From a bacterium (GTDB lineage: Bacteria; Lernaellota; Lernaellaia; JACKCT01): a stretch of DNA of 41,661 nucleotides. The notes under the pieces were generated by a model. The model did no database searches and had not been told where the DNA came from. It saw only the letters and a list, made by a program, of their open reading frames with translations. Every line of letters begins with the position of its first letter. Position 1 is the stretch's first letter. The position numbers and the translations under genes were made by a program. Below, piece by piece: positions 18,310-34,297 of this stretch. Location of the stretch: positions 1 to 41,661 of the forward strand of contig JAIOHV010000184.1 in assembly GCA_019912885.1 (NCBI GenBank), read 5' to 3'.

Positions 18310-18314
18310 CGGAG

Positions 18315-18375
18315 AAGGCTGGGACGCTGGAAGGCTGGAAGGCTGAAAGGCTGAAACGCTCGAAGGCCATCGCAA
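18315..18375 (+). repeat. 8-bp tandem array with GGCCATCGCAA end tag
   Basis: Directly after the secA stop come octamers GGCTGGGA, CGCTGGAA, GGCTGGAA, GGCTGAAA, GGCTGAAA, CGCTCGAA, ending in GGCCATCGCAA (18365-18375). One of six copies of this family in the window. It runs in the sense direction of secA and faces an inverted copy at 18503-18570. Confidence 0.75.
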
Positions 18376-18397: not shown

Positions 18398-18452
18398 CGC
18401 AGTCCATTTTGTCCATCCTGTCCATCAAGTCCATCGTGTCCATCGGGCACGC
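18398..18452 (+). repeat. 9-bp tandem array (NNGTCCATC)
   Basis: Five or six consecutive 9-mers, CAGTCCATT, TTGTCCATC, CTGTCCATC, AAGTCCATC, GTGTCCATC: the first two bases vary while GTCCATC is kept. It lies between two inverted 8-bp arrays in the 326-base gap between secA and the VOC gene. Confidence 0.75.
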
Positions 18453-18502: not shown

Positions 18503-18570
18503 TTGCGATGACCTTTCAGCCGTTCGGACTTCCAGACTTCCAGACTGTGCGACTTCCAGCTTTCCAATCC
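18503..18570 (-). repeat. 8-bp tandem array with GGTCATCGCAA end tag (inverted copy)
   Basis: Read on the minus strand this has units such as GTCTGGAA, GTCTGGAA, GTCCGAAC, GGCTGAAA, ending in GGTCATCGCAA (18503-18513). With the copy at 18315-18375 it makes a fold-back structure around the 9-bp array. It is the one copy not located 3' of a gene in sense. Confidence 0.7.
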
Positions 18571-18635: not shown

Positions 18636-19178
18636 ATGGCGGTGACCGGTGTCGACCACGCGGCGCTGACGGTGTCGGATCTCGCGCGCAGCGTCGAGTT
18701 CTATCGCGGCGCGTTCGGGCTTCGCCTTCTGCGTTCCGAGACGCTCGATCCGCGCATCGTGCATCGGGTTTTCGGCCTCGCGGGCGTGGAGGTCGTGCGC
18801 GCGGACCTGCGCGCGGGGCGCACCGGGCGGTTGACGCTCTATTGGTTCGCCTCCGGCGGCAAGGACCCGATCCGCGACGATTTCGACCGCCTCGGGATTC
18901 AGTTCGTCGCGCTTAGCGTGGACGATCTGGACGACGCGCTCGGCCGCGTGGCGCATCTTGGCGGCGAGGTTCTCACGGAGCCGGCGAGCGATCGGCCCGG
19001 CCACCGCGCTGCGTTCGTTCGCGATCCCGACGGCGCGATCTTGCAACTTCTGGAAACGCCATTTTCGCTTTCGCCCGTGGGACGCATCTATGCGCGCGGA
19101 CGCCGGCTCGTGGAGCGCCTCAGCCAGCCGGCGATGGCGGGCACGGCGGTGTCGCGAAAGGCGCACCCACGTCAGTGA
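18636..19178 (+). CDS. VOC (glyoxalase/bleomycin-resistance) family protein
   Basis: 180 residues, ATG with AAGGAGG 10 bases upstream. Two beta-alpha-beta-beta-beta modules are visible. The first opens VTGVDHAALTVSDLARSVEFYRGAFGLRLL (typical His in the first strand). The second includes GIQFVALSVDDLDDALGRV and closes with AFVRDPDGAILQLLETP, the usual metal-ligand Glu region. The general role is metal-dependent isomerase, dioxygenase or resistance chemistry; the substrate cannot be told. The last 40 residues are an Arg-rich tail beyond the domain. An inverted-repeat-bounded unit begins two bases after its stop. Confidence 0.85.
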   Translation: MAVTGVDHAALTVSDLARSVEFYRGAFGLRLLRSETLDPRIVHRVFGLAGVEVVRADLRAGRTGRLTLYWFASGGKDPIRDDFDRLGIQFVALSVDDLDDALGRVAHLGGEVLTEPASDRPGHRAAFVRDPDGAILQLLETPFSLSPVGRIYARGRRLVERLSQPAMAGTAVSRKAHPRQ

Positions 19179-19179
19179 C

Positions 19180-19212
19180 GAATTACGAGTGTCGAGTGTC
19201 GAGTGTCGAACG
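19180..19212 (+). repeat. Left 7-bp array of the four-helix-bundle unit
   Basis: Heptamers GAATTAC, GAGTGTC, GAGTGTC, GAGTGTC, GAACGGG. The first 19 bases (19180-19198) match the reverse complement of 19620-19638 at 18 of 19 positions. Confidence 0.75.
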
Positions 19213-19245
19213 GGCGAGCGACTAGAAATTTCAAGGACGTGGTCC

Positions 19246-19596
19246 ATGAAACACGACAATCTCCGCGAGCGAACATCGGCGATGGCGTTGCGCATCGTTC
19301 GCCTTGCCGAATCACTCCCGAAGTCCCGCTCGGCGGATGTCATGGCCCGGCAACTATTGCGTTCGGGTACGTCGGTGGCGGCGAACTATCGCGCGGCATG
19401 CCGCGCGAAATCGAAGAACGATTTCATTTTCAAGTTGGGCATCGTCGAGGAAGAGTGTGACGAATCGCTGTTCTGGATGGAACTCTTGATAAAAAGTGGT
19501 TTCGTTAAAGACGAACGAATTGCGGACCTGGTGAACGAGACATCGGAGATACTAAAGATTGTCGTCACTTCCCGAAAAACAGCGAAGTCACGCTGA
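19246..19596 (+). CDS. Four-helix-bundle protein (S23 / 23S-intervening-sequence family)
   Basis: 116 residues from ATG 19246; the longer open frame runs back into the VOC gene and is not used. The sequence fits the small four-helix-bundle family related to proteins encoded in 23S rRNA intervening sequences and to Avd of diversity-generating retroelements: MALRIVRLAESLPKSRSADV, ARQLLRSGTSVAANYRAACRAKS (the conserved R-S-x-x-S-V-x-A-N-Y core) and KLGIVEEECDESLFWMELLIKSG. Members form rings and may bind nucleic acid, but their role is unsettled. No reverse transcriptase or variable repeat lies nearby. The gene is framed by inverted 7-bp arrays, which suggests a mobile or inserted unit. Confidence 0.85.
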   Translation: MKHDNLRERTSAMALRIVRLAESLPKSRSADVMARQLLRSGTSVAANYRAACRAKSKNDFIFKLGIVEEECDESLFWMELLIKSGFVKDERIADLVNETSEILKIVVTSRKTAKSR

Positions 19597-19605
19597 GGCT
19601 TGTTG

Positions 19606-19647
19606 CGACGACCACTCGTCACTCGACACTCGGAATTCGACACTAGG
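19606..19647 (-). repeat. Right 7-bp array of the four-helix-bundle unit
   Basis: On the minus strand the units are TAGTGTC, GAATTCC, GAGTGTC, GAGTGAC, GAGTGGT. It begins 9 bases after the four-helix-bundle stop and overlaps the stop codon of the convergent gene at 19643. It is inverted relative to the left array. Confidence 0.7.
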
Positions 19648-21025
19648 GCAGCGTCTGATCCAGCGCCAATAGAACGTCGAGCAGAAGCTGCTTGATTCCG
19701 TCGTAGCCGGGGTCGGCGTAGAAGTCGCCGATGTCGATGCGCGTGATGGCCCAGTCGGGAATGACTGGCGGCAGGCCGAAGTAGCGCAGAATCGGGTTGA
19801 GGTCCGCGAGCGGGAACGGATTGTCGTTCGCCGGATCGACGTCCTTGGCGGTGTCGTCCCAGAAGGCGTCGCGCAGGTCGCGCGACATCTCGACCAGTCC
19901 CTCGAACAGAAGCATCTCGTCGTCGGACAACGCGCCGTATGACGGCAACACGAACGGTTCGCCGTCGTCCCATGTGAACGATCCGTTGGCGTCGAAATAC
20001 GACAACACGTCGTCCTCGGGGTTGTCGGTCTCCACGCGGATCGCGTCGGCCATCGCCGCAAACGCGCCGAAGCCGTCGCCGAGCGTCAGGCCGGCGAGCT
20101 GAAAGTCCGGAACATTCGCCGGCGGCAGCGTCAGGAAATCCGGAAAGGCGTCGTTGGTCAGCATATCGATCAGAAGGTCGACGATGGCGCCGAGTTTCTC
20201 GTCGTCGGGCAGGCCGCTGTCGAGAATGTCCATGATGACAAAGACTGCGGACACGTCGGTGTCGAGCGATATCGCGGTCAGGTGGCGGAACACGCCGGAG
20301 AACAGCGCCGCGAACGCATGCGCCGCGTGCAGCTCGCCGGAGTCGAACTGCGTCGAAAGCGTGGCGACATGCTCGAAGTGCAGGAAGATCGGGATGCCGT
20401 CGTGCGTGAATTGCGGATCGCCAAGCGCGAGCGCGATGCCGGCATAATCGGCAAGCTCCGCCGCGCGATCGACGACCAGGCCGTCGGCGACGATCTGCAG
20501 CACGGTGTCGAGCAGATTGTCTTCCTCGGCCGCGACCGGGCCGCCGTAATCGAGCACGGACAGCACGTAGTCGTAGATGATGCCGAACACGTCGAATTCG
20601 TGAACGGCGTTCGACATCACCACGCCGAAGCTCGTCTCGGGGTGCGCCGGGTCAAGGGCGTACGCGGCGAGAAAGTCGAGACGCGCCTTGTCGCCCTCGC
20701 CGATGGAAAGCCAGTCCTTGCCGGAGGCGATCAGGCTCTCGACGGTGGGATCGCTCGTGTCGTCGTCGGCGTCGTCGTCGTCATCGTCGTCCGCGTCGTC
20801 GTCGAACTCAAAATCGTCGTCGTCGTCGTCGTCATCGTTATCGTCGTCGTCGCTATCGTCGTCGGATGGGCCCGTGCCGTCCGTGTCGTCATCCGTCCCG
20901 GTGTCGTCGTCGATGGGCGCGCCGCCGCCGTCGTCATCGTCGTCGCCGCAGCCGCATCCCGCGGCAAGAAGCGACAGGGCGGCGAGAAGCGCGAGAAGCG
21001 GCACGGATCGAAAGGATTTGGGCAT
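19643..21025 (-). CDS. Asp-tether lipoprotein of unknown function (460 residues)
   Basis: Start placed at ATG 21025, where the export signal begins (MPKSFRSVPLLALLAALSLL, lipobox AAGC). The longer frame to 21103 lacks a signal. After GCGCG comes an extreme low-complexity tract (about residues 25-100) of Asp with Thr, Gly, Ala and Glu. The mature domain is acidic and largely helical (FLAAYALDPAHPETSFGVVM; AELADYAGIALALGDP; LGAIVDLLIDMLTND; GLVEMSRDLRDAFWDD). It has no Cys clusters and no motif I recognise. A TAGAAT box lies eight bases before the ATG, back-to-back with the promoter of the divergent gene at 21167. Its 3' end touches the right repeat of the four-helix-bundle unit. Confidence 0.75.
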   Translation of the reverse strand: MPKSFRSVPLLALLAALSLLAAGCGCGDDDDDGGGAPIDDDTGTDDDTDGTGPSDDDSDDDDNDDDDDDDDFEFDDDADDDDDDDADDDTSDPTVESLIASGKDWLSIGEGDKARLDFLAAYALDPAHPETSFGVVMSNAVHEFDVFGIIYDYVLSVLDYGGPVAAEEDNLLDTVLQIVADGLVVDRAAELADYAGIALALGDPQFTHDGIPIFLHFEHVATLSTQFDSGELHAAHAFAALFSGVFRHLTAISLDTDVSAVFVIMDILDSGLPDDEKLGAIVDLLIDMLTNDAFPDFLTLPPANVPDFQLAGLTLGDGFGAFAAMADAIRVETDNPEDDVLSYFDANGSFTWDDGEPFVLPSYGALSDDEMLLFEGLVEMSRDLRDAFWDDTAKDVDPANDNPFPLADLNPILRYFGLPPVIPDWAITRIDIGDFYADPGYDGIKQLLLDVLLALDQTLP

Positions 21026-21033
21026 CAAGGCGC

Positions 21034-21039
21034 ATTCTA
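21034..21039 (-). promoter_or_regulatory. -10 box (TAGAAT) eight bases before ATG 21025
   Basis: TAGAAT on the minus strand, with a gap of exactly eight bases to the start codon and no Shine-Dalgarno between. The -35 is weak (TTTCGC-like, 16 bases upstream). The same TAGAAT-8-ATG layout occurs on the opposite strand at 21153-21167. Confidence 0.4.
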
Positions 21040-21129
21040 CTGGTTTGAGCGCGCCGCGAAAGGGGTTTCGCGTCGATTTCCGTCCGCGGGCGGGACCGGG
21101 CAAATTATCGAAAAGTCCGCGAAGACCGG

Positions 21130-34032: not shown

Positions 34033-34119
34033 GGAGAGATGGCAGAGTGGTCGATTGCGGCGGCCTCGAAAGCCGTTGTACGGTTTACCGTACCGGGGGT
34101 TCGAATCCCTCTCTCTCCG
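34033..34119 (+). tRNA. tRNA-Ser (anticodon CGA)
   Basis: 87 bases. Acceptor GGAGAGA pairs with TCTCTCC and a G discriminator follows. The anticodon loop CTCGAAA is closed by GCGGC/GCCGT. A long variable arm (TACGG...CCGTA) is typical of tRNA-Ser. The T-arm is GGGGGTTCGAATCCCTC. CCA is not encoded. A run of six T follows within two bases of the end. Confidence 0.93.
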
Positions 34120-34130
34120 ATTTTTTATTT

Positions 34131-34194
34131 GCCGAACTGGGGTTCGGCGCTCCCAGGAGAAACGAATGCCGAACTGGGGTTCGGCGTTCCCAGG
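34131..34194 (+). repeat. Two direct REP-like palindromes between the tRNA-Ser genes
   Basis: Copies at 34131-34157 and 34168-34194 differ at one base. Each has stem GCCGAAC-TGGG-GTTCGGC followed by GCKTCCCAGG. The same element forms the inverted pair at 24456-24523. No transposase of the REP-associated type is present in the window. Confidence 0.8.
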
Positions 34195-34207
34195 GATAAA
34201 CGTGTTT

Positions 34208-34297
34208 GGAGAGATGACCGAGCGGCCGAAGGTGCACGACTGGAAATCGTGTGTGCGGTGTTGAGCCGTACCGAGGGTTCGAATCCCTCTCTCTCCG
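34208..34297 (+). tRNA. tRNA-Ser (anticodon GGA)
   Basis: 90 bases. The acceptor is identical to that of the neighbouring tRNA-Ser (GGAGAGA/TCTCTCC, discriminator G). The anticodon loop CTGGAAA is closed by CACGA/TCGTG. The variable arm is long. The T-arm has GGTTCGAATCC. CCA is not encoded. Confidence 0.93.

Follow-up and report, generated by a model that had tools for sequence, protein, structure and literature searches.

Why does a gene of the S23/IVP family, relatives of which are known from intervening sequences (IVS) of 23S rRNA, lie here in a gap between two protein-coding genes and between inverted arrays of heptamers? The locus is part of the window, i.e., the whole stretch of 41,661 nucleotides analyzed here (contig JAIOHV010000184.1 of assembly GCA_019912885.1, from a bacterium of the Lernaellota). 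A preliminary description had proposed a possible mobile cassette. Here, we conclude that window positions 19174-19644 likely represent a small mobile DNA cassette, in which an S23/IVP gene lies between mirror-image GA.T heptamer arrays. The unit is one copy of a widespread and apparently undescribed class of tiny mobile units.

Anatomy of the unit

The unit and its parts are as follows.

19174..19644, no strand: complete unit of 471 bp including both arms (based on its inverted arms, sequence and a chance test)
19174..19205, plus strand: left arm, with the exact array CGAGTGT x3.4 at 19186-19209; G-rich strand inward
19233..19237, plus strand: likely Shine-Dalgarno sequence AAGGA, 8 nt 5' of the start codon (inferred from reading the sequence)
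19246..19596, plus strand: gene for the S23/IVP four-helix-bundle protein, 116 aa (open reading frame, profile matches, solved relative 2rld)
19613..19644, minus strand: right arm, minus-strand heptamers, ending within the stop codon of the opposite gene (19643-21103)

The ends had been described as inverted repeats of GAGTGTC-type heptamers matching at 18 of 19 positions. This match is real, with GAATTACGAGTGTCGAGTG (19180-19198) and the reverse complement of GAATTCCGAGTGTCGAGTG (19620-19638) agreeing at 18/19 positions, and the heptamers are present at both ends, as an exact (CGAGTGT)3.4 array on the left and as minus-strand heptamers on the right. The true arms are longer, however, with 32 nt each (19174-19205 and 19613-19644), 91% complementarity and 407 nt in between. 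The left flank aligned to the reverse-complemented right flank with a score of 50, while the highest scores obtained by chance were 38 in first-order shuffles (0/2000 as high as 50) and 32 at sliding 350-bp positions elsewhere in the window (0/770 as high as 50).

The 116-residue protein matches PF05635 (4.4e-17; 62.7 bits versus a curated cut-off of 33.8), which makes it a member of the S23/IVP family as proposed, and it also matches TIGR02436 (1.1e-24; 86.8 bits versus a curated cut-off of 24) and the solved relative PDB 2rld (5.8e-21). A solved relative of the IVP protein is a toroidal homopentamer (PMC4990558). The unit fits exactly between its neighbors: in agreement with the earlier placement, it starts in the stop region of a VOC gene on the left and ends in the stop codon of an opposing lipoprotein-like gene (19643-21103) on the right. 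The IVP gene is the only open reading frame in the unit and, as had been noted, the unit encodes no transposase, nor does it encode a Y1 (RAYT) gene. No rRNA was found in the whole window. At this locus, no reverse transcriptase lies beside the IVP gene, as the Avd/DGR criterion would have it, the neighbors being VOC and a protein without a Pfam match; among the IVPs, the Avd model matched only another protein (L008), and this match was below the cut-off. Elsewhere in the window, a 37-bp direct repeat (34130-34202) lies between two tandem tRNA genes (34033-34297).

Inverted arrays in the same genome and across phyla

A search with PF05635 identified six loci in the 4.8-Mb genome, and inverted short arrays frame 6/6 of them. 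The repeat unit differs by locus, i.e., GAGTGTC (window), GAGTGCG, GAAGATT, GGAAATA, GAGGATT (with arms of 53 nt and 96%) and the 9-bp ATGGACNNN, while both ends of each unit match. The protein surrounded by the ATGGACNNN arrays (L012; C102 in the same genome) is longer and contains TIGR04258, a four-helix "suffix" domain; the same 9-mer is also present without a gene in many gaps. Thus, the expectation that other copies of this protein would have the same flanks was met in the inverted-array architecture, present at every paralogue, and in the GA.T core within the subfamily, but not in the repeat units themselves. The best paralogue of the window copy is 82% identical, and the genome contains no near-identical copy.

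Arrays without a gene are also present in this genome. Arrays of 7 bp are frequent in a 317-kb sample while shuffles yield almost none, and arrays of 7-9 bp are common in the gaps between genes, often flush with stop codons. They were found in tandem, convergent and divergent gaps, and we therefore rejected the idea that they are 3'-end elements of convergent genes only. Neighboring 7-bp arrays faced inward in 11 cases and outward in 1, and a three-heptamer pattern matched 523 times genome-wide compared to 51 times for its reversal as a control. Thus, gene-less relatives of the unit number in the hundreds in this genome, and inverted pairs with this type of repeat but no gene are dispersed in it. 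Their frequency and position next to stop codons are what would be expected if they were ordinary intergenic simple repeats, i.e., slippage-prone arrays that serve in termination or regulation, two of which flank an unrelated small gene by chance. However, slippage does not yield matched inverted ends, adjacent arrays face inward at 11:1, and gaps of every orientation carry them; moreover, as described below, the heptamer follows a protein subfamily across phyla and units interrupt genes. We, therefore, regard simple repeats as a highly improbable explanation.

The secA-VOC gap upstream of the unit contains further arrays (18314-18367, 18402-18445 and 18527-18559): an 8-bp GGCTGGAA array faces an inverted CTTCCAGA array, and a 9-bp GTCCATNNN array sits between the two. 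The orthologous gaps in two relatives (L014, L015) contain none of these 8/9-bp arrays. This arrangement looks like nested gene-less units.

The same architecture was observed far beyond this genome. In a first survey of 47 IVP loci, obtained from searches of 60 genomes and of the class, the left end compared with the reversed right end gave a median score of 39, versus 19 for ends of different units, and 31/47 loci were above the 99th percentile. Because a mixed alignment contained no conserved stretch, a subfamily alignment was used for the contig scan. Scanning named genomes in this way, we identified 80 relatives of the window protein with 51-62% identity; the 71 relatives with a phylum on the tree represent 18 named phyla. 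For the 76 relatives with usable flanks, the median end score was 40, while DNA 1.0-1.3 kb further out gave 18, with a maximum of 32. Wherever a period was clear in a high-scoring unit, it was 7 (28/28), and the G-rich strand points inward in 32/35 units. We searched for inward-facing pairs of arrays in which GA[AGT]T[GT]NN is present twice in a row. Such a pair is present in 55/76 relatives, as compared to one outward-facing pair and 0/76 in outer DNA 1 kb further out, and in only 7/43 members of other IVP groups; permuted or re-spaced motifs gave 0 to 4. Therefore, the heptamer core is associated with the protein subfamily in different phyla, and the inverted-array architecture is the rule for this protein family in many phyla.

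The protein tree requires 39 phylum changes where 17 would do, with the caveat that 71 rows of a 116-aa protein make a weak tree. Relatives were also found in 26 plasmid and 2 phage records. An rRNA host for the loci with conserved flanks was considered and rejected, since Rfam argued against it and the sites are the tldD-tldE, nuo and other gaps.

Several of these loci have features of their own. Five loci (L142, L145, L147, L155 and L203) have an IVP unit with flanking DNA that is common to different phyla. L142 and L145 have a gamma-glutamylcyclotransferase-like gene with an N-terminus that extends through the array. The sequences of L145 and L147 have 95.7% identity along 927 bp, and BLAST aligned nothing outside of this stretch. 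In G014 (L093-L097), up to 16 IVP-like matches have a different arrangement, mostly as divergent pairs of short ORFs ~200-400 bp apart with similar flanks.

Genes of the GxxExxY family (TIGR04256/PF13366; predicted PD-(D/E)XK fold) are also framed by matched inverted arrays, mostly of 8-10 bp, with units such as CACAGAGA, CACGGAGGA and GCAGATTTC. This applies to 7/7 loci in the class, and 22/25 loci overall scored above every outer control; among L079-L085 and L218-L241, nearly all loci examined have such a frame. Like IVP units, GxxExxY units have a single small gene with matched, inverted arrays of short tandem repeats on either side, and they are found in the same operon gaps; they differ by the unrelated protein and by repeats of 8-10 bp rather than 7. 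GxxExxY genes are present in 14/25 IVP-bearing genomes versus 3/35 others, and Y1 transposase genes in 24/25 versus 17/35. This co-occurrence may reflect shared machinery or merely genomes rich in mobile elements. In the window's genome, the Y1 genes lie outside the unit, elsewhere in the genome. We rejected the idea that the heptamer arrays belong to Y1/RAYT genes because most of 30 such loci have REP-like ends.

Movement at the DNA level and matching of the ends

Evidence for mobility of the class comes from G059, a genome distant from the window's source. G059 contains four IVP units, ~95.8-98.6% identical over ungapped common stretches of 427-624 bp and with unrelated flanks. They have the termini TTAAGCGCAATG (TTAATCGCAATG in one unit) and AATACAAGACG, use GAATGCA heptamers, i.e., the window's motif class, and have an extra structured right tail that is absent from the window unit. 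First, one unit interrupts a ferritin gene. The joined flanks encode a single ferritin (128.6 bits; profile positions 4-141), while the halves separately score 88.3 bits (4-99) and 30.0 bits (97-141); because ferritin is absent from the one available sister of G059, this empty site rests on the joined flanks and the Pfam profile. Second, another unit cuts a sulfate adenylyltransferase gene after codon 2. Third, gene-less units of 201 bp with the same termini as the IVP units occur singly and in exact head-to-tail tandem, and a pair of them cuts a dus-like gene (named from its sequence), the joined flanks of which read through. For the 201-bp unit, Rfam gave only a chance match far below threshold. 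The insertion sites in G059 have no target duplication beyond a possible 1 bp, meeting a criterion for IS200/IS605-like HUH elements for the G059 units only, and the base before the unit is G at the clean sites read. Criteria for DDE insertion sequences or MITEs are not met, with no duplication >1 bp in G059 and with ends that differ between copies in the window's genome. Altogether, the class moves at the DNA level, with or without the gene, into exact and nearly duplication-free sites in G059.

In addition, at one place in G059 (L246, 8248-9439), a gene-less unit is repeated six times head to tail; the junctions are exact, and the spacing is 201 bp for five of the units. This tandem suggests rolling or site-specific tandem insertion.

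For the window unit, the preliminary description had proposed looking for the VOC junction without the unit. Two genomes of the same family keep secA-VOC and have neither the IVP gene nor an array beside VOC. The downstream neighbor of VOC differs in both, so that this is an absence rather than a base-exact empty site; base-exact empty sites were found in G059. The observations named as refuting a mobile cassette, i.e., the same gene and flanks conserved at this locus across distant relatives or paralogues with unrelated flanks, were not made. The mobile-cassette reading is, thus, supported, and is extended by a cross-phylum class with many gene-less members. That the window unit itself moved as the G059 units did is inferred, and no movement of it was seen.

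The content of a single gap was also found to vary between genomes. Three Bacteroidota have a syntenic nuoD-nuoH-nuoI operon, with the genes named from their sequences. Between nuoD and nuoH, L206 and L162 each have an IVP unit, and L205 has a gene-less pair of 85 bp that has the same sequence in its arms. Between nuoH and nuoI, L205 has an IVP unit, L206 has arms that have decayed, and L162 has a GxxExxY-like gene with 9-bp ACACAAAGG arrays on both sides. A gene-less pair in an orthologous gap, together with the excess of gene-less pairs over IVP genes in the window's genome, would also fit a scenario of homing into hairpins, in which another process makes the gene-less pairs and the IVP gene later enters the loop, as for the rRNA IVS at helices 25 and 45. 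We consider this scenario unlikely: the G059 units entered intact coding genes as a whole, as arms plus gene or as arms alone, without a prior hairpin, and a heptamer core that follows the protein subfamily across phyla is unexpected for pre-existing local hairpins.

If the unit is a mobile DNA cassette, how are its ends kept alike? The variable letters of the heptamer are the same on the left and right in 37/55 units, while 14.9 are expected, and 0/10000 shuffles reached this value. Between the window copy and the paralogue with 82% identity, pS is 0.88, i.e., synonymous sites are saturated, and pN is 0.12; each of the two has matched arms. Thus, both arms of one unit change together. The IVP protein is under purifying selection, with dN/dS of 0.05-0.24 for unsaturated pairs from different genomes. 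One explanation for the matched arms would be an RNA-level element, in which the transcript folds via the arms, RNase III cuts the unit out, and the arms are kept for RNA pairing. In line with this, RNA of the unit folds far better than shuffles (z = -6.1), and the Coxiella IVS combines S23p, heptamers and excision by RNase III (PMC4990558). However, a strong fold is a trivial consequence of inverted arms, and the hosts here are protein-gene gaps with no obvious benefit from excision. Moreover, G-U-compatible changes are not in excess among arm mismatches (71 vs 72). Without such a wobble bias, RNA pairing is rejected as the constraint on the arms; DNA pairing or end-to-end copying is, therefore, the visible constraint. 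We regard an RNA-level element as improbable.

A proposed mechanism and its relation to known systems

For a mobile DNA cassette of this type, we suggest that the arrays, probably in a cruciform or as folded single strands, would be bound by the four-helix-bundle protein, an inference for which there are no binding data. The protein may present the ends to an enzyme provided in trans, which would process the DNA by cutting and joining; this step is likewise inferred, and no enzyme was identified. As the first candidate, we tentatively name a HUH/Y1 transposase acting in trans, while acknowledging that this is more doubtful than probable. The second candidate would be host replication or repair copying the hairpin. 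Most surviving insertions would follow a stop codon and precede the next gene, or lie at the edge of a gene without disturbing its frame. REPINs depend on RAYTs; by analogy, after loss of the gene, the arms of an IVP unit may persist as a gene-less unit that gene-bearing copies could still move. Several points argue against this model. The movement of the window unit itself is only inferred because its own genome contains no near-identical copy and there is no clean empty site. Also, no catalytic protein is encoded in the unit, binding has not been shown, and Y1 ends are mostly REP-like rather than heptamers. Moreover, the mobility data come from a distant genome, G059, and the extra structured right tail of its units has no counterpart in the window unit.

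The closest known relatives are the 23S rRNA IVS with an S23p ORF in Coxiella burnetii and Leptospira. The Coxiella IVS is 428 nt long and has inverted ends and an S23p ORF after GACAGAT heptamers; it has been suggested to represent a remnant of transposition or a mobile element (PMC4990558). The comparison with IVS made in the preliminary description holds for the anatomy: the window unit has the same protein family, a similar size (428 nt vs 471 bp), an S23p ORF with complementary inverted ends, tandem heptamers before the ORF and a sporadic distribution (PMC4990558). It does not hold for the host site, which is a protein-gene gap (VOC/lipoprotein-like) rather than a 23S rRNA helix, or for an RNA-pairing signature, which is lacking in the arm mismatches of the window class. 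By contrast to the IVS, this class also has heptamers in both arms, abundant gene-less copies and, in G059, mobility at the DNA level.

Likewise, the REPIN/RAYT system consists of dispersed inverted pairs of short repeats in gaps, with few gene-bearing and many gene-less copies. However, the IVP gene encodes a four-helix bundle without a catalytic site and not a Y1 transposase, and the IVP repeat is a tandem heptamer with letters that vary by unit, while RAYTs of the same genomes have other ends. In Xanthomonas campestris, 186 GGGANTN arrays, among them 70 convergent pairs, are mostly intergenic and were read as G-quadruplex formers and not as a mobile element (PMC4692102). These arrays, known from Xanthomonas and Nostoc, have a heptamer of the same GA.T shape, but window heptamers lack G-runs and GGGANTN has not been linked to an S23 gene (PMC4692102). 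TAACTGA repeats of Beggiatoaceae, Cyanobacteria and Bacteroidetes resemble the window class as intergenic heptamer arrays with a patchy cross-phylum distribution; they differ in being almost all direct and upstream of starts, with only one inverted case and no gene identified (PMC4679880). They were read as translational signals, and a mobile repeat-binding protein was suggested in passing (PMC4679880). Among openly licensed PMC papers, we found none that joins rRNA IVS, Xanthomonas heptamer pairs and TAACTGA repeats.

Because IVP genes and the unrelated GxxExxY family have the same architecture, our data suggest a common mobilizing machinery. It is an evenly balanced possibility that S23/IVP units and the parallel GxxExxY units form a separate minimal mobile class, in which the protein recognizes arrays of 7-mers (or 8-10-mers) with variable letters that are free as long as both ends agree, which multiplies as folded DNA via borrowed host enzymes, and which is the source of intergenic heptamer and nonamer arrays in many environmental bacterial genomes. 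A family with no annotation beyond "four helix bundle protein" or "ribosomal S23" becomes the gene of a mobile unit, and the old puzzle of rRNA intervening sequences is linked to a general element. The finding also offers a possible origin for the hundreds of heptamer arrays per genome that have elsewhere been read as G-quadruplex or regulatory repeats. Finally, ends that keep matching while their sequence drifts raise a biochemical question, namely whether they are matched by pairing or by copying from end to end.
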